From positions 1 to 64,000 of the forward strand of contig CAIUOG010000045.1 of NCBI GenBank assembly GCA_903900705.1: DNA of 64,000 bases, given 5' to 3'. Positions within the stretch are counted from its first letter, which is position 1, and every line of letters starts with the position of its first letter. A program made the translations under genes and the position numbers. Positions 52,835-64,000 of this stretch are shown in pieces. The notes beneath the pieces were generated by a model. The model saw nothing but the letters and a program-made list of their open reading frames with translations. It did no database searches and was not told the origin of the DNA. The DNA is from an uncultured Acidobacteriia bacterium. GTDB lineage: Bacteria > Acidobacteriota > Terriglobia > Bryobacterales > Bryobacteraceae.

Positions 52835-53316
52835 GTTTATCGGCCAGCGTCCATCAGCCGATCAGGTTGACAGCGTCTACTAAATCGTCGCACGCGCAGG
52901 TAGACACTGTCAACATTCGACGCATCCGAAAGGCCTTGTGCAATTGAGTACAGACGCCGACCCGCAGTTTTCCGGAGGAGGCGACCACAATGAGCAACGT
53001 GCCACTACTTTCCGAGGCAAGGGATATGACGCCGGCAGAGGCTCCGAACGAGTCACAGCATGTATCCGGCAAGACATTGAATTTACGAAGGAAAGAGGCG
53101 GAACGACACATTGAAGCGAGATCAGGGCTGGCAGGTTTTGACGTGGTGACGGGAGTTCAACGGGTGGCTGCCGGCGTGATGGCGGCAGGTGAGATCAGGG
53201 CAGGCGGTGAGGGAGGGTGGGTGCATCCGGGCGGGTTTTGTCGGGTTCGGCACCCTCATACGGCCGGGAGATCGGCTTGCGGCGCAATCTGTGATACGAC
53301 ATACTGTCACTACCCG
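52835..53316. other. Divergent control region between the SDR operon and the histidine kinase
   Basis: About 480 bp. The operators of the SDR-tetR operon are at 52866-52914. The frame of the kinase stays open back to 52990, but this part (RSGLAGFDVVTGVQRV and onward) shows no domain and the kinase signal anchor begins after 53317, so I treat it as non-coding leader. Confidence 0.55.
52866..52914 (-). promoter_or_regulatory. Paired TetR-type operator palindromes
   Basis: GTTGACAGCGTCTAC (52866-52880) and GTAGACACTGTCAAC (52900-52914) are inverted copies with one mismatch, 19 bp apart. Each half is itself a near-palindrome (GTnGACA-n-TGTCnAC), the size and symmetry of a TetR site. They lie 32-80 bp upstream of the SDR start, and the TTGACA they contain could serve as a -35 box. 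Confidence 0.75.
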
Positions 53317-56300
53317 ATGAACAAGTCCGAGACGGTGGCGAGACGGGAAACCGATGGTCTCCATGTTGCCGTCCTCATGGTGCTCGCTTCCGCCATTGGT
53401 TACGGCGGGTATCAGTTCTATTCCACCCAGAAACAGGTGATTGAATCCGGGTTGCACCGGCAACTGGTCGAGATCGCCGCGGCGAAGGTGAGTCAGGTGA
53501 GCGTCTGGCGGCAGGAGAGAATGGGCGACGCCGCTCTTGCCGCCGTCGAGGCTCGTTTGATGCCTGATGTGCAACAGGTCCTGCATTCGCGGGGTACGCC
53601 GGAAGCCCGCCGGCGGACCTTGGAATGGATGGAGGCGCTCCGGTCGAATTACCGATACGCGAACATCGTCCTGCTTAACTCCGACGGACAGAGCCTCCTC
53701 ACAACCGGTGAGCGGTTGGGCACGGAGGATCTTTATGCGGAGATGGTTCGGGAATCGGCGCGGGCACCCAACGGCTGGGCGTTTCGGGAATATCATAGCG
53801 ATCCCAGAGTTGTACGACCTCATTTTGTTTTGGGCGTGCGGCTGAGAACGGACCAGGGCGAGACTTCCGGCGTGATGCTGATGGGAATCGATCCCCAGGT
53901 TACGGTATATCCCTCGATCATGAAATGGCCGACGGACAGCCGGACCGGCGAGGTGTTCCTGGTACGCCGGGATGGTGATCGCGTTCTGATTCTGAGTGAT
54001 CTCCGGCGGGGACCGGAAGCGGCGATGCAACTGGAGGGCCTGGGGACTAAGACACTGTCCCCGGCGGTGCGGGCGGTGGTTTCGCAGGGGATCGCGAGGG
54101 GCGTCGATAAGAGCGGCGTGGAGGTGATCGCGACAGCCTTGCGGGTACCGGGCGACGGCAAGGACTGGTTTGTCGTTTCTCAGATTCACGCGGAGGAGGC
54201 GTACCAACCGGTGCGGGATCTCCGCATGATGGTCCTTCTGGTGAGCGTGCTGCTCTTTCTGGCGTGTGCGGCGGGTGTGGGACTGATCTGGCGGCATCAG
54301 GTCTCTATGAGCTACCAGCAGCGATACGAGAGCGAGCAGGAGCGAAGGGCGTTGCTGGGGCATTATGACTACCTGACCCGCAATGCAAACGACGCGATTC
54401 TGCTTCTCGATGAAAGCGGTGCGATCCGGGCGGCGAATGACAGGGCGACCGAGTTCTTCGGGTACAGCAAAGAGGAATTGGTCCAGCTGAATATAAGGCA
54501 GCTGAAGACTTCGCAAACGATGGCGGAGTTCGACAAAGCCTGGGAGAAGCTGCACCGGGAAGGAAGCCTGCTTTATGAAACCATGAACCGGCGGAAAGAT
54601 GGCCGTGAAATGGCGACAGAGGTCAGCGTCCGGGTGATTGATGTGGACGGCCACAAATACTCCCAGAGCATCGTGCGCGACATTACGGACCGCAAGCAGG
54701 CTGAACGGCAGATCCGGAGACTCAATCGACTCTACGCGGTGCTGAGCCGCAGTGGCCGGGCGATGGTGAAGGCGCGGACGGAAGGCGAGCTGCTGGACGC
54801 GGTGTGCGGGATTGCTTCGGAATCGGGAGGCTTTGCGCTGGCGGTGATCACGAGGCTGGATCCGGACACGCATCAACTGATCCCGGTGGCGGCGGCTGGG
54901 GACAGCCGTGACTATCTGGAGGGCGTGGAGATGAGTGCGGCTGACGTTCCGGTGGGACGCGGGCCGGCCGGCACGAGCGTGAGGGAACTTCGACCGGTGA
55001 TCTGCAACGATATTCCGACGGACCCGGCGATGACGCCGTGGAGGGAGATGGCTGCCCGGTACAATCTGCGGTCTTCGATTTCCCTTCCTTTGATTCGAGC
55101 TGGCGGGGTGATCGGGCACCTGGGGCTTTACGCGACGGATTCCGGGTTCTTCGATGAGGAGGAGGCTGCGCTGGCGGGCGAGATTGCCGAGAGCGTGTCT
55201 CATGCGCTGGACACCCTGAGTCAGGACCAACAAAGGCGGCGAGCCGAGGAGGAACTGCAAGTCAGCCGCGAGCGACTGGAACTGGTGCTGGACGCCAGCG
55301 ATGAGGGCTATTGGGATTGGAATCTGCTTTCCACAGAAGCACACCAAAGCCCCCGCTACGAGACGCTGCTGGGATACAAGCCAGGGGAACTGGAACCCGG
55401 TTATCTGCCGTGGCGCGGGATGGTGCATCCCGAGGATCTGCAGGCCACGGATCAGAAGTTCCATGAATTCATCCAGAACGGCACCAGCAGTTTTTCGTGC
55501 GAATATCGCATGCGCCGCAAGAGCGGGGACTACGTCTGGGTGATCTGCCGGGGGAAGGTGGTGGAGCGGGATCAAACCGGCCGGCCCATCCGGGTTGTGG
55601 GTACGATTGGGGATATCACGGAGCGGAAACAACTGGAAGCGCAGTTTCTGCAGGCACAGAAGCTCGAAAGTGTAGGCCGGCTGGCGGGCGGGGTGGCGCA
55701 CGACTTCAACAACCTGCTGACCGTAATCAACGGCTACAGTTCCCTGCTGATGAAGCGGCTGCGGGAAGGAGACCCACACCGGCAACAAATACAGCAGATT
55801 CTTCAGGCCGGCGAGCAGGCGGCCAACCTCACGCAGCAGCTTCTGGTTTTCAGCCGCAAGCAAATTGTGGAACCACAGGCCCTGAGGCTGAACGTGGAAG
55901 TCAGCCAGGCGCAGAAGATGCTTCAGCGCATCGTGGGCGAGGATATCGAACTGACGATTGACTTGCGGGCGAAGCCGGATGGAGTGATGGCGGATCGCGG
56001 CCAGATCCACCAGGTACTGATGAACCTTGTGGTCAACGCGAGGGACGCGATGCCAAACGGGGGCAGGATCCGACTCGCGACGGAGAACCACGACCTGAGG
56101 CCGGAAGAAACGATGGAGGGGTCGGGGGAAACTCCGGGTTCCTATGTTGTTCTGACAGTGTCCGACAACGGGCTTGGAATGGACGAGAAGACGCGGCTAA
56201 GAATATTCGAACCCTTCTTCACCACAAAAGAGGTGGGCAAAGGCACCGGACTGGGCCTGGCGACGGTCTATGGCATTGTGAGGCAGAGCGGCGGATTTAT

Positions 56301-56784
56301 TCGCCTGGAGAGCGAACCGGGCGAGGGTGCGACCTTCCGGATTTGTCTGCCGCTGGTTGCGGCGAATTCGGTGGAGGGAAAGGCGGCTGTGCCGTGCGAG
56401 ACCGCCGGTACGGAGAGGATTCTGCTTGTCGAAGATCAGGAACAGGTTCGCACGCTGGCGGCAGAAAGCCTGCGAATGTATGGCTACTCGGTGGTGACGG
56501 CGGCCAATGCCGAAGAGGCATTGGCGCAGGCGAGACGGATTCGCGAGCCAATCGACCTGCTGCTGGCGGATGTAGTGATGCCGGGAATCAGTGGCACGGT
56601 GCTGGCGAAGAAGATCCTGGAGTTCAGGACGGAGACCCGTGTGCTGTTCATGTCGGGCTACACGGAAGAGGCGCTTGGAAGGAACGGGGTAATCGAGGCA
56701 GGGACGAAGTATTTGCAGAAGCCGTTTACGCCGGACAGCCTGGCGGCGCGGGTGAGGCAGGTTCTGGACATAGAAATACTGTGA
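53317..56784 (+). CDS. Membrane-bound hybrid sensor histidine kinase (Cache-PAS-GAF-PAS-HisKA-HATPase-REC)
   Basis: The 1155-residue protein has two membrane segments (about 15-35 and 303-325) flanking a roughly 270-residue extracytoplasmic Cache-like sensor domain. Next come PAS (about 350-465), GAF (about 475-635), PAS (about 652-770), and HisKA with the phosphoacceptor His795 in [10 protein letters not shown] HATPase domain follows ([21 protein letters not shown]). A C-terminal receiver holds the phosphoacceptor Asp1085 in LADVVMPG. The ATG at 53317 is chosen because the membrane anchor starts just after. No cognate regulator adjoins it; the signal is unknown. Confidence 0.9.
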
Positions 56785-56836: not shown

Positions 56837-59179
56837 CTATACGCCCGCGGCCCTGAGGGCGGCCAAGACGCGTTCGGGACGGAACGGGACTCTGCGGAGG
56901 CGAACGCCGGTGGCGTCATGGATGGCGTTGGCGACGGCGGCCATGGTGGGTTTGAGGCAGGCTTCACCGGCGCCGTAGAGCGGGAGATCGGGACGGCCGG
57001 GGTTGGGGTCTCCGTTCACGATGACGATTTCGACGCTTGCGGGGACGTCGGCGTGGCGGAGCGTGGGGTGAGAGATCCAGTCCACGCTGGTCACCCGTTC
57101 GGTGTTGAAGCGGACTTCCTCGTGCAGGGAACGGCTGAGACCGTGGAGCATGCCGCATTCGAGGCTGGTGAGAAGGCTTTGGGGATTCACCACAAAGCCG
57201 CAATCGTGCGCGCAGACCATGCGTTTGGCCCAGACATGGCCGGTTTCACGGTTGACCTCGACTTCGACGATCTGGGCGACCATGGACTGGCCACGGAAGG
57301 TATAGGCGATGCCGCGACCGGTCAGGATTTTCCCGGAACCGCGGGGCTTGCCGGAAGGCCGGGAATCCCAGCCGTACTTTTGCGCGGCGGCCTTCAGCAC
57401 GGCAAGGGAACGGGCGCGGCGGAAACCGCTGTCGTCGCCCGTGCCGGCCTCCAACAACTTCAGACGGAAGTCCAGGGGATCGGCCTGGATGGCCGCGGCC
57501 ACTTCATCGATGAAGGACTCGGAAGCGAAGGCGGCCTGCGGGCCGTTGGGGTCGCGCAGATTGCCGGTGCGGAGAGGAGTCTCCCAGATGGCCGGTAAGG
57601 CAACGACATCGCCGCGCATGCCGCGATTCGGAATGGCGTACATATCCGAAGGAGTGGCGGCGCTTCCGGCGGCGGGCTTTTCGCGCCGCTGTCCCATGAG
57701 TTGCGCGATAAGCGTGGTATCGGGTTCGTTGTAGCCCAGGTGATTGTAGTCGCACGAACGGGCTTCGTAGGAATACCCGTTCAGGTTCCCCTCGTTATCG
57801 AGAGCGGCGCGCATCTTCACAAGGAAGGCGGGCGATTTCGAATCCCACGCGGTTTCCTCGTCGCGCATCCACTGCATACGGACGGGCCGGCCGAGTTCGT
57901 GAGCGAGCCAGGCGGCTTCGCAGGCCGCGTCTTCCGCGGCGGTGCGGCCAAAGCCCTGAGAGCCCGGCATGTAGACGACGCGCACGCGGTCGTGCGGCAG
58001 GCCGAGAAAGGTGGCTACGCCGCGGCGCATTCCGTACGTCTTCATGTCGTTCGAGTAGATGGTCATCTGGCCGTTCGAAGGATCGGCAATGGCATGAGCC
58101 GGGCCAAACGCGGTATGACCCTGGAAGGGGATTTCATACTCGGCTTCGATGACTTTGGCCGCATTTTGGAAGGCCCGGGCGGGGTCGCCCACAACGAGGG
58201 CGCCGGCTTCCGGCCCGGCAGTGGATACGGCGACGGGTTTGGCGGTCCGGAGATAGTTGAAGAGATCGTCAGACGACGGGAAGGGCGCGGTGGCGGGCTT
58301 TTGCCAGGTGGTCTTCAACTGGCGGGCGGCCCGAACGGCCTGCTCCTCGCGTTCGCAGACCACGGCGACATAGTTGCCCTTGCTCATTACTTTGATGAAG
58401 CCCGGCAGGGACTTCACGGAAGATTCATCAATGCCCGTGAGGGTGGCGCAGGCATAGGGAGGTTTCACGTTGCGGGCATGCACCATGCCGGGCAGCTTCA
58501 CGTCGACCGAGTATTTCGTGGTGGCGTCGACCTTGCCGGGGATATCGTCTCGGCGGGTGGGCTTGCCGGCGTATTTCAGTTCCGGGATGGTTTTGATTTT
58601 CGCCTTACCGTTGACGTTCAAGGCGTTGTTACCGCTGAGGGTGATGTTGAATTTCCCGCCGCCGATCAGGTCGCCGTAGGTGACGTGTCTGGACGGGTCG
58701 GTTTTGACAGTGACTACTCCTTCGGACACGGCGAGCTGATCGAGGGGAACGGCGAAGCGGGCGGAGGCCATTTCGAGCAGCGCGCGGCGGGCTTCGGCGG
58801 CGGCGCGGCGCATGGGCAGAGAGTCGCGTTCCATGGCGCTGGAGCCGCCGGAGCCGATCTGATCGACGGTGATGTCGGTGCTGCCCATGATGCAGGTGGT
58901 GTTGTCGAACGCGATGTCGAGTTCGTCGGACATGAGTTGACGGAAGCCGGTTCCGGTGCCCTGCCCGGGGTCGGTTTTGCCGACGTAGAAGGTGGCGGTA
59001 TTGTTCTGGTGAATGACGATCCAGGAGTCGAGTCTGGTGGGGTCGACAAGCGGATAGGGGCCGGGTGCGTCGGCGGCGGGGCTGGCCGGGGCGGCGAAGC
59101 CGATGAAGAGGAGACCGGCGGTGGTGAGGAAGCCGCGCCGGTGCGTGAGCAGGATGTCCTCGACGTTTTGGGGAATCAT
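56837..59179 (-). CDS. Xanthine-dehydrogenase-family molybdopterin-binding subunit (isoquinoline oxidoreductase-type)
   Basis: The 780-residue protein is the large subunit of a two-component molybdenum hydroxylase. The N-terminus (THRRGFLTTAGLLFIG) looks like a Tat signal with a double Arg, which suggests export. Cofactor-binding blocks include GQGTGTGFRQLMSDEL and QGFGRTAAEDA near the molybdopterin pocket. The arrangement without an FAD subunit is typical of isoquinoline 1-oxidoreductase-like enzymes (IorB). It overlaps the 2Fe-2S subunit gene by 4 bp. The substrate, probably an aldehyde or N-heterocycle, is unknown. Maturation may need the MOCOS-like protein encoded at 8610-10088. Confidence 0.88.
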   Translation of the reverse strand: MIPQNVEDILLTHRRGFLTTAGLLFIGFAAPASPAADAPGPYPLVDPTRLDSWIVIHQNNTATFYVGKTDPGQGTGTGFRQLMSDELDIAFDNTTCIMGSTDITVDQIGSGGSSAMERDSLPMRRAAAEARRALLEMASARFAVPLDQLAVSEGVVTVKTDPSRHVTYGDLIGGGKFNITLSGNNALNVNGKAKIKTIPELKYAGKPTRRDDIPGKVDATTKYSVDVKLPGMVHARNVKPPYACATLTGIDESSVKSLPGFIKVMSKGNYVAVVCEREEQAVRAARQLKTTWQKPATAPFPSSDDLFNYLRTAKPVAVSTAGPEAGALVVGDPARAFQNAAKVIEAEYEIPFQGHTAFGPAHAIADPSNGQMTIYSNDMKTYGMRRGVATFLGLPHDRVRVVYMPGSQGFGRTAAEDAACEAAWLAHELGRPVRMQWMRDEETAWDSKSPAFLVKMRAALDNEGNLNGYSYEARSCDYNHLGYNEPDTTLIAQLMGQRREKPAAGSAATPSDMYAIPNRGMRGDVVALPAIWETPLRTGNLRDPNGPQAAFASESFIDEVAAAIQADPLDFRLKLLEAGTGDDSGFRRARSLAVLKAAAQKYGWDSRPSGKPRGSGKILTGRGIAYTFRGQSMVAQIVEVEVNRETGHVWAKRMVCAHDCGFVVNPQSLLTSLECGMLHGLSRSLHEEVRFNTERVTSVDWISHPTLRHADVPASVEIVIVNGDPNPGRPDLPLYGAGEACLKPTMAAVANAIHDATGVRLRRVPFRPERVLAALRAAGV

Positions 59180-59676
59180 GCGACCACCTCTTTTTCCTGA
59201 GCGGCGTTGTCCAGAGCGGCGACGGTTTTGGCGGCGCGCTTGATGGCGGCCTGGACGCGGTTGTAGGACATACAGCGACAGAGGGTGTTGTTCATGGTGT
59301 CGCGGATCTGCGCATCGGTAGGGTGGGGATTTTTGTCGAGCATCACCTTCGCGGTCATGATTTGCCCGTTCTGACAGAAGCCGCACTGGGGCGCCTGCTC
59401 ATCGATCCACGCCTGCTGGAGGGGGTGGAGCTGGCCGTTGCGGGAGAGGCCTTCGAGGGTGGTGATTTCACCCCGGACGGCCGAAACGGGAAGGATGCAC
59501 GAGCGGACGGCGGCGCCGTTCAGGATGACGGTGCAGGCGCCGCATTGTCCGAGTCCGCAGCCAAAGTGGGGGCCTTGCAGATTCAGGTCGTTGCGAAGGA
59601 TGTAGAGGAGGGGCGTGGTGGGGTCGACATCCACCGTATGTGTCCCGCCGTTTACCTTCAGGGTGATTTTACTCAT
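59176..59676 (-). CDS. 2Fe-2S subunit of a molybdenum hydroxylase
   Basis: The 166-residue protein has the two 2Fe-2S clusters of the CoxS/IorA type. The N-terminal plant-ferredoxin-like cluster uses GCGLGQCGACTVIL plus a later Cys in VRSCILP. The C-terminal helical domain carries QCGFCQNGQI and LCRCMSYNR. It passes electrons from the molybdopterin subunit. The ATG at 59676 is chosen because the fold starts there (KITLKVNG). Confidence 0.93.
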   Translation of the reverse strand: MSKITLKVNGGTHTVDVDPTTPLLYILRNDLNLQGPHFGCGLGQCGACTVILNGAAVRSCILPVSAVRGEITTLEGLSRNGQLHPLQQAWIDEQAPQCGFCQNGQIMTAKVMLDKNPHPTDAQIRDTMNNTLCRCMSYNRVQAAIKRAAKTVAALDNAAQEKEVVA

Positions 59677-59783
59677 TGCGCACGTTCCTTGGGGCCGTCC
59701 GGATGATGGCAACCGGCTTTATGATATCGCTGTCAGAGCCGGACGCGTGATGGCGGTGCGGCGGCGCGGCGGAAATCAATGGA

Positions 59784-60539
59784 TCAGGCGGGGGGAAGCG
59801 AAGGTTCGGAGAAGTTCGTCACGAGCTGGTCCCCGGGGGCGCTGGTCAGGAGGCTGAGAGCGGCCAGCATGATGCTCTTCTGCAGGACGGGATCGTGAGG
59901 TTCTCCGAGCGGGTAGCCGAGAGGGCGGTCCACGATCAGCACGCGCGGCGGGTTGACGCGCTTTGTGACTTCCATAAGAAGGGAAATGGAGACGGTGGCG
60001 ATTCCCGCTCTTTCGATGATGCTCTGCAACAACCCGGCGGCCTGATGGCAGAAAGGGCAGACCGGGGCGAGCAGGACGCCATCCACACGGTCTTCCAGTA
60101 ACTGGCGCGCAATCTCTGGCCCGCTCTCCGCGAGGAGACGGGCGGGGGCGATGATCGAACCCATGATGCTGTAATGCCGGGGCGCGGCTTCGCCGATGAG
60201 CCCGGCATCGATCAACTCGCGCAAGCGGTCGAGCGGCAGCGTTAAATTCCGGTCCGCTTCAATGCCGGAGTGGTCGAAGGCGTCGCTCGATTGCCCGATC
60301 CGCAAGGTATCCGCCGGGGTGCCCCAGGGAATTTCGCGGAAAGAGCAATCGTCATGGCGGAAAGATTGGTCGAAGGGCGCCTGGCCTGGCAGGTAGAAAC
60401 CCGCCGTCGTGATCAGCGCAATGCGAGCCTGTTTCAGCGACTTATTCAGACGAGCGCCGGGCCGCCAATCGACGTGGCGGAACGGATAGCCCTGGATCAG
60501 CACCCGGTATTTGAGTTTCAGGTCCGAGAGTTGTGCCAT
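59784..60539 (-). CDS. GrdB-like protein (glycine/betaine reductase component B family)
   Basis: The 251-residue protein resembles the GrdB/selenoprotein B family of glycine, sarcosine and betaine reductases, in a short Cys form. At the usual selenocysteine region it reads LLAPVCPFCHQAAG, a CxxC motif with no in-frame TGA, so it is not a selenoprotein here. The neighbouring IERAGIATVSISLLMEVTKRV and RPLGYPLGEPHD match the family. Genuine glycine reduction is unlikely without GrdA and GrdC. The ATG at 60539 lies 1 bp after the methyltransferase gene. Its function is unknown, but it probably acts with the three upstream genes. Confidence 0.7.
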   Translation of the reverse strand: MAQLSDLKLKYRVLIQGYPFRHVDWRPGARLNKSLKQARIALITTAGFYLPGQAPFDQSFRHDDCSFREIPWGTPADTLRIGQSSDAFDHSGIEADRNLTLPLDRLRELIDAGLIGEAAPRHYSIMGSIIAPARLLAESGPEIARQLLEDRVDGVLLAPVCPFCHQAAGLLQSIIERAGIATVSISLLMEVTKRVNPPRVLIVDRPLGYPLGEPHDPVLQKSIMLAALSLLTSAPGDQLVTNFSEPSLPPA

Positions 60540-60540
60540 A

Positions 60541-61350
60541 TCATGCAGCGGGAACGGGGGTGCGACCGGTAAGAATCGCGTAGCCCAGGGTCCGCGCGCG
60601 AACCGCGTCTGAGGCGGCGCGCGCCATGGACTTCGCCTGGGTGAAGTCGACGCCGCCAAGATCGATTTTTTTCAGTTTGCTCATGATTTCGACACCGAGG
60701 AGTTTGCCCTGAATATCGCGCACCATTTCGGCGAGCGCCTCGTCGTGCGGTTCCATGGCGACATTCACCAGACCGGCGGATTCGAGATAGCCGGCGTATT
60801 CGGCGACGGGCCTCGCGTCGGCGATGCAGGCAACCCAGGCGAGCAGACCGGTCAACTCCGGCGGGAGCGTCGCGGCGCGGGTGAGATCGCTCAAACCGAC
60901 CTGGCCACCGGGTTTGAGAACGCGAACAAACTCCGCGGCGGCCTGGGCCTTGTCGGGGAACGTGCAAAATGCACACTCGCAGATGACGGCATCAAAGCTG
61001 AGAGCCGGGAAATCGATTTTCTCGGCGTCGCCCTGACAGATCCGGATGAGTGAAGCGGCAGGGGATTGCGCGGCGCGGACGGACGACTGCCTGACGTTTT
61101 CCGGCCCGAAGTCGATGCCGACGACTTCACAGCCGAAGGTTTCGGCAAGAAAGATGGCGCTTTCGCCCTTACCGCTGGCGACATCGAGAACGCGCATGCC
61201 TGGCCGGAGACCGAGGTTTTCCCCGAGACGGCGGGTGAGACGAAGACCGCCGGGGTGAAACGAGTCGCCGAGCAGCATACGCGCGAGATCGCTTTCATAG
61301 AGCGTGGCGCAACAGGATTTGAGTTCGCCGGCCGTTGTTTCGGGGCTCAT
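60541..61350 (-). CDS. Class I SAM-dependent methyltransferase (ArsM-like)
   Basis: The 269-residue protein has the class I SAM fold: VLDVASGKGESAIFLA (motif I), VVGIDFGPENV (motif II, acidic residue), and FDAVICECAFCTFPD (motif III/IV). The N-terminal ELKSCCATLYESD with a Cys pair and HPGGLRLTRRLG are features shared with arsenite methyltransferase-like proteins, but the third catalytic Cys position of ArsM is not clear. Product and substrate are unproven. It overlaps the radical SAM gene by 4 bp, so joint action is likely. Confidence 0.8.
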   Translation of the reverse strand: MSPETTAGELKSCCATLYESDLARMLLGDSFHPGGLRLTRRLGENLGLRPGMRVLDVASGKGESAIFLAETFGCEVVGIDFGPENVRQSSVRAAQSPAASLIRICQGDAEKIDFPALSFDAVICECAFCTFPDKAQAAAEFVRVLKPGGQVGLSDLTRAATLPPELTGLLAWVACIADARPVAEYAGYLESAGLVNVAMEPHDEALAEMVRDIQGKLLGVEIMSKLKKIDLGGVDFTQAKSMARAASDAVRARTLGYAILTGRTPVPAA

Positions 61351-62873
61351 TCGGTGTTCCCCGCCGGGGCGAGCGTGACCAGGGGTACCGGTTGAGGGAC
61401 GGCGGGTTCCGCGGCGAAGGAGAACGTGACGGGCCGGGGTTCATACCGGCGCCCTTCCCTGCGGGCGAGGCGGCGTTCGGGTTCCGCGGCCACCAACTGT
61501 TCGCGGGCCTGTTCGCGGTAGCCAATGGTGTTGTAGGAACAGAAAGGAATCTGTTTGCCGCCTGGCAAAAGGAATTCCTTGCAGCACTTCATGAGGTTCT
61601 TCTGATTGAAAGTCCAGGGGTCCATGAAGTCCTGGAGCATGATCATCATCATGTGCTGCGCGATGTCACCGACGGTGAGGCTCTCCGGGATGCCACAGGA
61701 CTGGCAGGAGAACGCCAGTTGTTCGGCGGATTTCTGGGAGCCCGCCACGGAGGACGAGGACCAGAGACCTTCGAGCGCTCCCTTGACTTCCATGTTCCAG
61801 TCCGGCATCACGCGATTGGCGATGTAGTCCAGGTAGTCATACACATTGACGATGCGCGGCAGAGGGGTCACGGTGTCTCCGTCGATGAAGGCATAGGTGA
61901 CGGAGTTGCAGGTTGGGAAGCAACAGGGTACGGGGACGAAATCGCTTACCTTGAATTTCTCCGCTGTCTGCGTCTCGATCAGACGCAGAATATCGGGAAT
62001 TGTCATGCGGTTCATCGGATCGTGTTTCGTGTGACGGCCGGCATGAAACGCGGGCTGAAAGTTAATTCCCCGGATCGCCGGATGCCTGATGGCGAACTCG
62101 ATGATCCGACCGATTTCATGTTCGTTCACACCGCGCTCAATGGCTGGAACGATGGTGACGGTAAGGCCGATCTGCGCGAGGCGATCGAGCGCGAGGAGCT
62201 TTTCCTCAAGGATGTCGGGTTCACCGCGCAGAACGCGATAGGTCTCGGATTCGAAGCCATCAAACTGGAAATAGATGGACGGACGGACTTCATTCAGCTG
62301 TTCGAGGAAGCGGTCGTCCTTCGCGATGCGTTTGCCGTTGGTGTTGACCATTACGGAGGAAATGCCGCGGGCTTTGGCGGCACGGACGAAATCGATGATT
62401 TGCGGGTGAATGGTGGGCTCGCCGCCGGAGAACTGTACGACTTCCGGATTCCCCTCGGTGCGCACATAGTCGTCCAGAATCTGCTCGACTTCCTCCAGGG
62501 TCAGGTTGAAGCCTGGACTGGCGTCGGAGAAGCAAAGAGGACAGGCCATGTTACAGGCACTGTTCACTTCGATAATACCGAGGCAGGCGTGCTGCTGGTG
62601 ATCGGGACAAAGGCCACAATCGTGGGGACAGCCATCGTGAATTTCGGCGTTGAAAGCGAGCGGAATGGTACCCGGTTTGTTGTAGCGCGCCTGGGTCATA
62701 TAGGCTTCCGCATCGGCGTAGACGAGGCCTTCAAAAGGCCCGCATTGCGGACACCGCTTGCGCATGTAGACCTTGTTGTCGCGGAGCAGAATCTGCGCGT
62801 CGATAACCTTGCGGCACTCGGGGCAGATACTGCGCGTCAGTTCGTAGAAAACGTAATCGGCATCCTTCTTCAT
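61347..62873 (-). CDS. Tes-like radical SAM protein (COG1964-type, tetraether-synthase family)
   Basis: The 508-residue protein has the radical SAM motif CNMACPLC (Cys107, Cys111, Cys114). It also has the extra Cys sites of the Tes/COG1964 family: CPEC (Cys17, Cys20) and CPQCG (Cys41, Cys44), then GCPHDCGLC (Cys82, Cys86, Cys89). C-terminal family blocks PVPCCFPTCNS, MKCCKEFLLPGG and IPFCSYNTIGYR are intact. Archaeal Tes joins two lipid chains to form tetraether lipids; bacterial homologues are known, but their products mostly are not. The C-terminal 50 residues are a Pro/Arg-rich tail. It lies 9 bp downstream of the flavoprotein gene. Confidence 0.85.
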   Translation of the reverse strand: MKKDADYVFYELTRSICPECRKVIDAQILLRDNKVYMRKRCPQCGPFEGLVYADAEAYMTQARYNKPGTIPLAFNAEIHDGCPHDCGLCPDHQQHACLGIIEVNSACNMACPLCFSDASPGFNLTLEEVEQILDDYVRTEGNPEVVQFSGGEPTIHPQIIDFVRAAKARGISSVMVNTNGKRIAKDDRFLEQLNEVRPSIYFQFDGFESETYRVLRGEPDILEEKLLALDRLAQIGLTVTIVPAIERGVNEHEIGRIIEFAIRHPAIRGINFQPAFHAGRHTKHDPMNRMTIPDILRLIETQTAEKFKVSDFVPVPCCFPTCNSVTYAFIDGDTVTPLPRIVNVYDYLDYIANRVMPDWNMEVKGALEGLWSSSSVAGSQKSAEQLAFSCQSCGIPESLTVGDIAQHMMMIMLQDFMDPWTFNQKNLMKCCKEFLLPGGKQIPFCSYNTIGYREQAREQLVAAEPERRLARREGRRYEPRPVTFSFAAEPAVPQPVPLVTLAPAGNTE

Positions 62874-62882
62874 AACTCTCCT

Positions 62883-64000
62883 CTAACGCACGAGCTTCGA
62901 TAAACCGCGAACGATGCTGCCCGAGACGCCGGACAGCAGGCGCTCCAGGGTCATGTCTCCGGCAAGCTGCCAGGTGGCCGAGGAGTAACCGGGGTAAGGG
63001 TGAATGACTCCGGCAAGATCAGAAGTTTTCATTTTCATTTTGATGGCGAGAGCAAGTTCGCAGATTGCCTCGCCCGCACGGGAATGGACGATGGTGGCGC
63101 CCAGGATTCGACCGTTGGGGGCGGCGACGATCTTCACGAAGCCGTCCTCCGCCGCGTCACAGATGGCCCTGTCCGTCCGGCTCATATCCTGACGGCCCAC
63201 CTGAATGCGGTCGCCGAACCGCGCGCGCGCGGTTTGTTCGGACAGCCCGACGTGGGCCACCTCGGGGTCGGTGAACGTGGCGGAAGGCAGCGGGGAGAGT
63301 CCGTCGGAAGAACCCGGAAGAAGAGCATTTCTGGCCGCCTGAAAGGCCTGCCAGCCCGCGAGGTGAGTGAACTGGGGACCGCCGGTGACGTCGCCCGCCG
63401 CATAGATGTGTTTCACGTTCGTCCGGAAGCGGCTGTCAACCGGGATGCCTCTTTCGGAAAACTTCACGCCGGCTTTGCCGGGATCGAGCGCGTCCACCAC
63501 GGGCGCGCGTCCGGAGCCGATGAAAAGCATTTCGCCGCGCGCTTCTCCGGAATCGGAGACCGCCACAACGGCGCCGGACTCTTTTCGCACCGCGCGCACG
63601 CAACCGCGAATCCAGTGAATGCCTTCGCGTTCGAAGACGCGGGCCATGGTTTCGGAAACCTCGGGCTCGTCTTTGGGAAGCAACTGAGCCGCCACGATGG
63701 TGACCTGAACGCCGAAGCGCCGGTAGGCCTGGGCGATTTCCATGCCGATGGGGCCGCCGCCGACCACGATCATGGAAGCGGGAAGCCGGTCGTTATCGAA
63801 AATGCTCTGGTAGGTATGAAAGGGGATTTCGGCCAGACCGGCAATGGCGGGGATGCGCGGGCGCGCGCCGGTGGCGAGGAGGAAAGTTTTGGCCCGCAGC
63901 ACGGTGTGGCCAACCTGAATTGTTCGGGCATCGAGGAAGCGAGCCTCGCCTTCGATGATTTCGACGCCCTGGCTGCGCAGTTCCTCCGGGCTTTCGAAAT
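62883..64000 (-). CDS. Pyridine-nucleotide-disulfide oxidoreductase, mercuric-reductase-like (5' end cut off)
   Basis: The gene continues beyond the right edge; 372 codons are visible. The NAD(P)H domain motif VVGGGPIGMEIAQAYRRFG, the second FAD motif HIYAAGDVTGGPQF, and a dimerisation domain ending IHPYPGYSSATWQLAGD are typical of the MerA/lipoamide dehydrogenase group. The tail lacks the C-terminal Cys pair of MerA, so mercury reduction is unlikely. The redox Cys motif near the N-terminus is outside the window. It is the first visible gene of the set with the Tes-like enzyme and could reduce a partner in that pathway. Confidence 0.85.
   Translation of the reverse strand, partial: FESPEELRSQGVEIIEGEARFLDARTIQVGHTVLRAKTFLLATGARPRIPAIAGLAEIPFHTYQSIFDNDRLPASMIVVGGGPIGMEIAQAYRRFGVQVTIVAAQLLPKDEPEVSETMARVFEREGIHWIRGCVRAVRKESGAVVAVSDSGEARGEMLFIGSGRAPVVDALDPGKAGVKFSERGIPVDSRFRTNVKHIYAAGDVTGGPQFTHLAGWQAFQAARNALLPGSSDGLSPLPSATFTDPEVAHVGLSEQTARARFGDRIQVGRQDMSRTDRAICDAAEDGFVKIVAAPNGRILGATIVHSRAGEAICELALAIKMKMKTSDLAGVIHPYPGYSSATWQLAGDMTLERLLSGVSGSIVRGLSKLVR

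Follow-up and report, generated by a model that had tools for sequence, protein, structure and literature searches.

The final genes of a 64,000-nucleotide stretch of DNA from an uncultured Acidobacteriia bacterium (positions 1 to 64,000 of contig CAIUOG010000045.1, assembly GCA_903900705.1; referred to here as the window) include a pair coding for a radical S-adenosylmethionine (SAM) protein, which resembles the archaeal tetraether synthase Tes, and an ArsM-related methyltransferase. Judged from its sequence, the radical SAM protein is a representative of a distinct Tes/TrsS-type branch, separate and widespread, and is unlikely to make membrane lipids. We tentatively read the locus as a thiol or soft-metal stress operon, which would make or modify a small metabolite, either linked to a metal(loid) or a thiol. 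A sequence-only reading of the same DNA had combined the two genes with a GrdB-like protein and a flavin oxidoreductase in one tight set and had proposed lipid coupling towards branched glycerol dialkyl glycerol tetraethers (brGDGTs), with a hedge towards a different radical SAM product made with the ArsM-like partner. That hedge was judged right. A literature search found no paper on the pair of radical SAM protein and methyltransferase.

The radical SAM protein shares 33% identity with Tes of Methanocaldococcus jannaschii (MJ0619, also GDGT-MAS; PDB 7tol and 7tom) in a scripted comparison, with a phmmer E value of 2.5e-78, but it scores 321.8 bits with the Tes model NF045702 (cut-off 450). 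Its score with the model of the radical SAM (seleno)protein TrsS, NF045646, is close to this value (319.3 bits; cut-off 490), and none of the four window proteins reached an NCBIfam cut-off. A quick tree of 68 rows comprised 26 members of the window branch, seven proteins of a type represented by a paralogue on contig C29 of the host genome (C29-type), ten TrsS, one haloarchaeal protein, 15 Tes including 7tol, and nine proteins of a long form. A split with a support of 99 in the Shimodaira–Hasegawa-like approximate likelihood ratio test (SH-aLRT) separated Tes and the long form, which is nested in Tes, from the window branch, the C29-type, TrsS and the haloarchaeal row. The window branch formed one group (SH-aLRT 99), joined to the C29-type (SH-aLRT 100). 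In a second quick tree, of 42 rows, the topology uniting the window branch with Tes and the long form against TrsS and the C29-type was rejected by the approximately unbiased test (p-AU 0.00105). Both trees are unrooted and thus give splits, not rooted clades, and the tool warned that long branches meet. The sequence-only reading had named placement outside the Tes clade as a refutation; the window protein falls across a supported split, in unrooted trees, from archaeal and bacterial Tes. The term “Tes-like” holds for the fold, whereas membership of the Tes family does not: the score is under the cut-off and the trees put the protein across the split from Tes. Assignment to the family as a Tes or brGDGT synthase was rejected on the NF045702 score and both trees.

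TrsS lies on the same side of the tree and shares Cys97 with the window protein. However, besides the score under the cut-off, the window gene has no in-frame TGA, whereas one such codon occurs in six of 11 TrsS rows above the cut-off, and TrsS loci have other neighbours. TrsS genes above the cut-off were found in ten of 396 genomes of the phylum (L141-L150, genomes of family f38).

The predicted structure of the radical SAM protein (mean predicted local distance difference test score, pLDDT, 76.2) superimposed on Tes with Z scores of 41.5 and 37.4 over 420–421 residues, the next match being MoaA with 17.7. Residue conservation was compared between 85 rows of the window branch and 29 Tes rows. 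All twelve metal-site cysteines of Tes are kept (Cys17, 20, 41, 82, 86, 89, 107, 111, 114, 322, 430 and 445; 0.99–1.00), in patterns matching the rubredoxin-type CX2C...CX2H site, the CX3CX2C site with His, the radical SAM CX3CX2C motif and the C-terminal cluster cysteines. At position 44, the window protein has Cys and 54% of the branch has His; His92 is invariant in the branch. The claim of a full set of Cys sites and C-terminal blocks is thus confirmed by the conserved cysteines and the 420-residue superposition. The branch differs from Tes in six extra cysteines conserved at 0.99–1.00 (Cys97, 317, 318, 390, 393 and 431). Among these, Cys97 is common to the window branch, the C29-type, TrsS and the haloarchaeal row, Cys390 and Cys393 form a CxxC absent from Tes, and some of the Tes rows, too, have Cys at positions 317 and 318. 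One or two residues at the C-terminal cluster are changed as well: Gln414 (95% of the 85 rows) replaces Met439, which is Met in 29 of 29 Tes rows, and the following residue is Asp where Tes has His. Since Met439 is a labile ligand of the C-terminal cluster and the M439A variant of Tes retains activity, according to the excerpt of PMC9433317, the exchange for Gln marks a changed, not a dead, site.

Related loci were taken as the best 80 of 154 relatives from a contig scan, 65–87% identical and spread over seven named phyla (33 loci from Acidobacteriota, 29 from Chloroflexota, 12 from Pseudomonadota and five from four further phyla), with one locus outside the named phyla and with many metagenome bins among them. 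In 75 of the 80 loci, the next gene downstream, on the same strand, is that of the methyltransferase; among the other five, three contigs end within 300 bases (L093 shows the methyltransferase start), and L079 and L126 are without it. When partners were compared between branches, mostly within flanks of 1.5 kb and with three genes counted twice, the methyltransferase gene was near 24 of 25 genes of the window branch, but near only one of 30 Tes genes (about 1 kb away) and none of 12 long-form, ten TrsS and nine C29-type genes. On longer stretches, an ArsM-type gene lies about 1.4 kb off, on the opposite strand, in three of five TrsS loci; the only one scored, in L172, codes for a true ArsM (358.8 bits; cut-off 263). 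The pair recurs on Mycolicibacterium plasmids (52% identity), and a distant form of it was found on haloarchaeal plasmids (five records, in one of which the radical SAM gene is broken).

The best family match of the methyltransferase is the DVU_1556 model NF045667 (127.3 bits; cut-off 155), to which four relatives score 127.7–137.8 bits. Seven cysteines (Cys13, 14, 74, 124, 126, 129 and 175) are each at least 93% conserved in 61 sequences, Cys126 being Cys in 95% and Cys175 in 97%. In an alignment with ArsM-type proteins, Cys126 falls on the Cys of the SNC motif and Cys175 on that of the WVGC motif, which we take to be, in role and numbering, the As(III) ligands of algal ArsM; both As(III)-binding positions are thus present. 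The model of the protein (pLDDT 91.5) has a class I fold, and comparison of this modelled fold with solved structures names no substrate. ArsM was not among the best 50 structural matches listed, which excludes nothing. With ArsM (NF008823) and the DVU_1556 family, the window methyltransferase shares the class I fold and both ligand positions, but it is under both cut-offs and lacks an ars operon.

Coordinates of the open reading frames (ORFs) confirmed four minus-strand genes at the end of the window, with a 9-bp gap between the flavin adenine dinucleotide (FAD) reductase and radical SAM genes, a 4-bp overlap between the latter and the methyltransferase gene, and 1 bp between the methyltransferase stop and the likely ATG (60539) of the GrdB-like gene; the 291-aa TTG form of this last ORF is an over-extension, and the 251-aa ATG form is preferred. 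The notion of a tight operon with a redox partner is borne out by this spacing and by the FAD reductase, of which 371 of 483 codons (about three quarters of the gene) lie inside the window. As a whole protein, it scores 388.3 bits with PRK06370 (cut-off 620) and 337.4 bits with the MerA model TIGR02053 (cut-off 454.45), and its sequence carries the CxxxxC motif of disulfide reductases and lacks a CC pair. A mercuric reductase was rejected for lack of the C-terminal vicinal CysCys pair and for the TIGR02053 score. A homologue (at least 150 bits, 35% identity) occurs in 40 of the 80 loci, many of whose contigs are short, and stands beside a gene of the major facilitator superfamily (MFS) in 21. 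The FAD reductase contains a tandem VVDLS repeat (VDLSVVDLSVVDLSVVDLSK), which is absent from the relative in L100.

The GrdB-like protein scores 36.5 bits with Pfam GRDB PF07355 (cut-off 22) and 133.3 bits with PrdB TIGR04483 (cut-off 300); with the Pfam match above the cut-off and the CxxC site, it belongs to the PrdB/GrdB family in the wide sense. It shares the CxxC/UxxC site with PrdB and GrdB, but no proline or glycine reductase genes lie alongside in the loci seen. It is 73%, 71% and 58% identical to the proteins of L100, L110 and L097, respectively. Cys161 of the window protein (CPFC, TGC codon) corresponds to an in-frame TGA, read as selenocysteine (U), in L097 (TPVUPMC) and L100 (VPVUPFC); a more distant relative in L066 likewise has an in-frame TGA (VPVUPIC), and the L110 protein has Cys at the site, as in the window. 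A hairpin just 3' of the TGA gave a z value of -2.28 in L100 and -0.47, not clear, in L097, while the Cys forms gave about +1. SelA was found above the cut-off in three of the five genomes (window, L097 and L066) and not in those of L100 and L110. These comparisons of residues and codons support the view that this accessory gene codes for a PrdB-like redox site; no solved structure related to the protein by sequence was found. A GrdB-like gene is near the pair in only four of the 80 loci, and in one of these the similarity is weak. Conservation of all four genes as a single unit was rejected, given these four loci and the FAD reductase homologue in 40 loci, 14 of them adjoining.

Genes within 7 kb of the 80 loci fell into 27 recurrent clusters, the labels of which were checked on examples. 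They include the FAD reductase (37 loci), extracytoplasmic function (ECF) sigma factors (23), MFS proteins (21), VKOR (13), the DUF692 bufferin enzyme (9), DUF2063 (8), NrsF (8) and a MerR-type regulator (4 loci, one checked). Among 148 near neighbours, the Pfam families VKOR (14), AhpC-TSA/Redoxin (11), ECF sigma (10), CDP-alcohol phosphatidyltransferase (8) and NrsF (6) were found. A redox theme recurs around the pair in mycobacterial and haloarchaeal loci: CcdA and a TlpA-like protein are encoded nearby in Mycolicibacterium, and three of the five haloarchaeal records contain a dihydrolipoyl-dehydrogenase-type FAD enzyme, only 32% identical to that of the window, and three a redoxin or peroxiredoxin.

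The Caulobacter-type sigma-F element GTAACC-N15/16-CGA (excerpt of PMC3420878) was present within 900 bases upstream of the radical SAM gene in seven of 79 loci, as compared to 0.24 expected from dinucleotide shuffles. This search was run after the result with a loose pattern, which had given 41 matches in whole proteobacterial loci against 26.7 expected (mononucleotide shuffles). The strict form GTAACCTTT-N11/13-CGA, picked after viewing the matches, likewise occurred in seven of 79 loci, with 0.03 expected; the figure of 0.24 is the fairer one. Of the six of these loci that were listed, five have the strict form ahead of an operon ending in sigF-nrsF as well, with a gene labelled DUF692 in four. 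Most of the seven elements are found near copper-bufferin operons. The sigma-F regulon responds to copper, chromate and cadmium in Caulobacter (excerpt of PMC8224329) and to H2O2 and singlet oxygen in Bradyrhizobium (excerpt of PMC3420878), and bufferins bind copper (excerpt of PMC12452194). L097, a close relative (87%), has DUF692, DoxX and ECF sigma-like genes alongside. A role of the pair as bufferin modifier was rejected, the host genome having no DUF692 enzyme.

In the operon that we tentatively propose, the Tes-fold radical SAM enzyme and the ArsM-related methyltransferase would form a core acting on a common small-molecule substrate, which may carry a metalloid in the trivalent state, for example As(III), or thiol or selenol groups binding soft metals. 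The methyltransferase would hold this substrate via Cys126 and Cys175, perhaps also Cys13/Cys14 and Cys129, and then methylate it. The radical SAM enzyme would use its 5'-deoxyadenosyl radical to join or modify a carbon beside the C-terminal auxiliary [4Fe-4S] cluster, comparable to the action of Tes on lipid tails, in an active site altered by the exchange of Met439 for Gln and of the next His for Asp and by the added CxxC. The FAD disulfide reductase may keep thiols or an intermediate reduced, as may the PrdB-like protein in a few Acidobacteriota, and the MFS protein could export the product. In proteobacteria, the unit would be induced together with the sigma-F regulon for metal and oxidative stress. 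The operon, the family, the tree position, the conserved residues and partner, the promoter in seven proteobacterial loci and the in-frame TGA of PrdB-like relatives are results of the computation; that all parts serve one pathway, along with its substrate and product, electron route and export, is inferred. That a hitherto undescribed pathway of this enzyme pair serves several bacterial phyla and haloarchaea in making a carbon-metalloid, carbon-chalcogen or metal-chelating thiol compound is possible but doubtful; the same joint reading, held with the same doubt, would have this compound protect against oxidants and copper-like metals and would include a selenocysteine-containing PrdB-like reductase as an optional part.

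Several observations weigh against the proposed stress operon. The methyltransferase scores just 91.0 bits with the ArsM model (cut-off 263), and the structures nearest to its model are PMT, MitM and CmaA1 (Z about 27), i.e. small-molecule and lipid methyltransferases. Only 14 of the 80 loci have a FAD reductase homologue that adjoins the pair in the same orientation. A gene of CDP-alcohol phosphatidyltransferase, a phospholipid enzyme, stands beside the pair in eight Ktedonobacteria loci (three checked), which hints at lipids. Neither the 27 recurrent clusters nor the 25 Pfam families that head the list of 102 for the 148 neighbours include an arsenic-resistance family. All seven loci with the sigma-F element are alpha- or betaproteobacterial, judged by record title or gene content, the strict form was not found on the 20-kb stretch of the window locus, and no DUF692 enzyme was found in the host genome; for these reasons, the link to metal and oxidative stress is strong for the proteobacteria, whereas for the window copy we infer that it may apply.

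An unlikely but credible alternative is a low-molecular-weight thiol or redox cofactor without metalloid, built by the radical SAM protein and the methyltransferase, with the FAD enzyme as the matching disulfide reductase on the pattern of the glutathione, mycothiol and bacillithiol systems. The CxxxxC motif without CC pair, in a family that includes glutathione and mycothione reductases, the VKOR, AhpC-TSA/Redoxin, CcdA and TlpA-like neighbours and the sigma-F regulation are all consistent with it. However, the FAD reductase homologue is confined to half of the loci (again with many short contigs), and the ArsM-type ligand pair would need another role.

We consider it rather unlikely that the locus directs organoarsenical synthesis, in which a C–As bond would be formed, arsenic methylated and the product exported by the MFS protein, comparable to ArsL-ArsM-ArsQ (arsinothricin) or ArsS-ArsM (arsenosugars). 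The arsQML cluster has the same make-up of radical SAM protein, ArsM-like protein and exporter permease (excerpt of PMC8552651); besides, both As(III) ligand positions are retained, and the true ArsM in L172 is near a TrsS gene. In contrast, the radical SAM protein of that cluster, ArsL, is unlike the window protein and has its CX3CX2C at 194-201, ArsQ is GntP-like where the window exporter is of the MFS, and arsQML is under ArsR-type As(III) control (excerpt of PMC8552651). ArsL gave no match for the window protein, from which it differs in radical SAM family. The linkage with a known arsenic pathway, which the sequence-only reading had named as its other refutation, was not seen, the recurrent neighbours (27 clusters and first 25 of 102 Pfam families) containing no ars genes, and an ArsC-like gene beside one haloarchaeal pair scores just 62.6 bits versus 174.3. 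ArsS, too, presumably belongs to a radical SAM family different from that of the window protein.

Lipid coupling, in which a bacterial synthase of membrane-spanning lipids (with the function of Tes or of Mss, the enzyme characterised in Thermotoga maritima) would form iso-diabolic acid or brGDGTs and the methyltransferase would add lipid methyl groups, is improbable. The full-length Tes fold with its metal-site cysteines, the resemblance of the methyltransferase model to CmaA1/CFA-type lipid enzymes and the phospholipid-type gene in Ktedonobacteria argue for it, as does Solibacter usitatus, which has two Tes homologues and produces brGDGTs (excerpt of PMC10087280). The reading nevertheless fails its own test because the radical SAM protein is placed outside the Tes clade; the methyltransferase partner is near-absent from Tes loci, and the changed cluster-side residues, the sigma-F promoter and the redox neighbours likewise speak against it. 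The host genome holds another candidate. It contains three Tes-like genes above 200 bits, namely the window gene, C54 (a 750-aa open frame; 312.1 bits for Tes) and C29 (478 aa). Among the matches listed for 101 genomes (own, genus, family, order and class), a close copy of the window gene occurs in one other genome (G061, 72%), while the long form like C54 has many rows and a form of about 550 aa at least 15; one acidobacterial protein of the latter form reaches 577.3 bits for Tes, above the cut-off. Identities to MJ0619 are 40–48% for the 550-aa rows and 26–35% for the long rows (scripted comparison). Since the identities of 42% for Koribacter, 40% for Solibacter and 32% for Edaphobacter aggregans in the excerpt of PMC8941075 fit both forms, these are, by sequence comparison, the likely lipid candidates in these bacteria, in the host genome C54.

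That paper, a survey of possible brGDGT makers, set the limits for bacterial Tes homologues at E < 1e-50, identity > 20% and over 400 aa (excerpt of PMC8941075), and would very probably count the window protein in view of its 508 aa, its identity to MJ0619 and its E value. A gene of the window branch alone gives no ground to read its carriers as tetraether makers, although loose searches would count them. The branch opens further functions of the Tes fold to testing: the two genes are small and their products soluble, relatives with a stress-type promoter exist in Bradyrhizobium and Afipia records, and the conserved Cys pair predicts a soft-element ligand.

A TrsS-type role tied to molybdenum hydroxylases, to which the 2Fe-2S and molybdopterin-binding genes next on the same strand in the window and the molybdopterin-binding hydroxylase and aldehyde ferredoxin oxidoreductase genes near TrsS in L172 might point, is very improbable, as no homologue of at least 50 bits of either window gene occurs in the 80 loci and the TrsS score is far under 490.

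Table 1. Genes of the locus, neighbouring features and related genes (L009:7884-9335 corresponds to contig positions 62883-64334, the FAD reductase gene)
Feature	Position	Strand	Remarks
PrdB/GrdB-like gene	59784..60539	-	251 aa, accessory, CPFC site
ArsM-related methyltransferase gene	60541..61350	-	269 aa, near-constant partner
Radical SAM gene	61347..62873	-	508 aa, own branch of Tes/TrsS type
FAD disulfide reductase gene	62883..64000 in window	-	CxxxxC, PRK06370-like, 483 aa, start at contig position 64334
MFS gene, outside window	L009:9322-10548		overlaps FAD reductase start by 14 bp
ECF sigma gene	L009:11903-12538		about 1.4 kb beyond MFS gene, one other ORF between
2Fe-2S subunit gene and molybdopterin-binding hydroxylase gene	56837-59712	-	3' of GrdB-like gene
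1264-aa ORF	52990-56784	+	
Long-form gene C54	G000:C54:75571-77130 (L013, L053)		
C29-type paralogue	G000:C29:15155-16543 (L051; also L054, L193)		
Ktedonobacteria loci with CDP-alcohol phosphatidyltransferase	L104-L108, L113, L116, L119		

Among the paralogues listed in Table 1, C54 is the better candidate for the synthesis of membrane-spanning lipids. In the C29-type, Cys of the C-terminal cluster is missing in many rows. A prolipoprotein diacylglyceryl transferase-like gene adjoins the C29-related gene in L054, and M. branderi, too, has such a gene in the vicinity of a radical SAM gene. The neighbours of TrsS in L172 include, apart from the two genes already mentioned, one coding for an AMP-ligase-like protein.

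The 2Fe-2S and molybdopterin-binding genes, the latter of the xanthine dehydrogenase family, were rejected as part of the operon, there being homologues of at least 50 bits in none of the 80 related loci. By eye, the 1264-aa ORF resembles a hybrid sensor histidine kinase of the PAS/GAF type that includes a receiver domain. The host genome has a size of 6.1 Mb and is 99.87% complete. On a plasmid of Mycolicibacterium vanbaalenii (L137), the pair adjoins genes of the Rv1679 (FadE16) and Rv1681 radical SAM families as well as deiodinase-like and AhpD-type genes.

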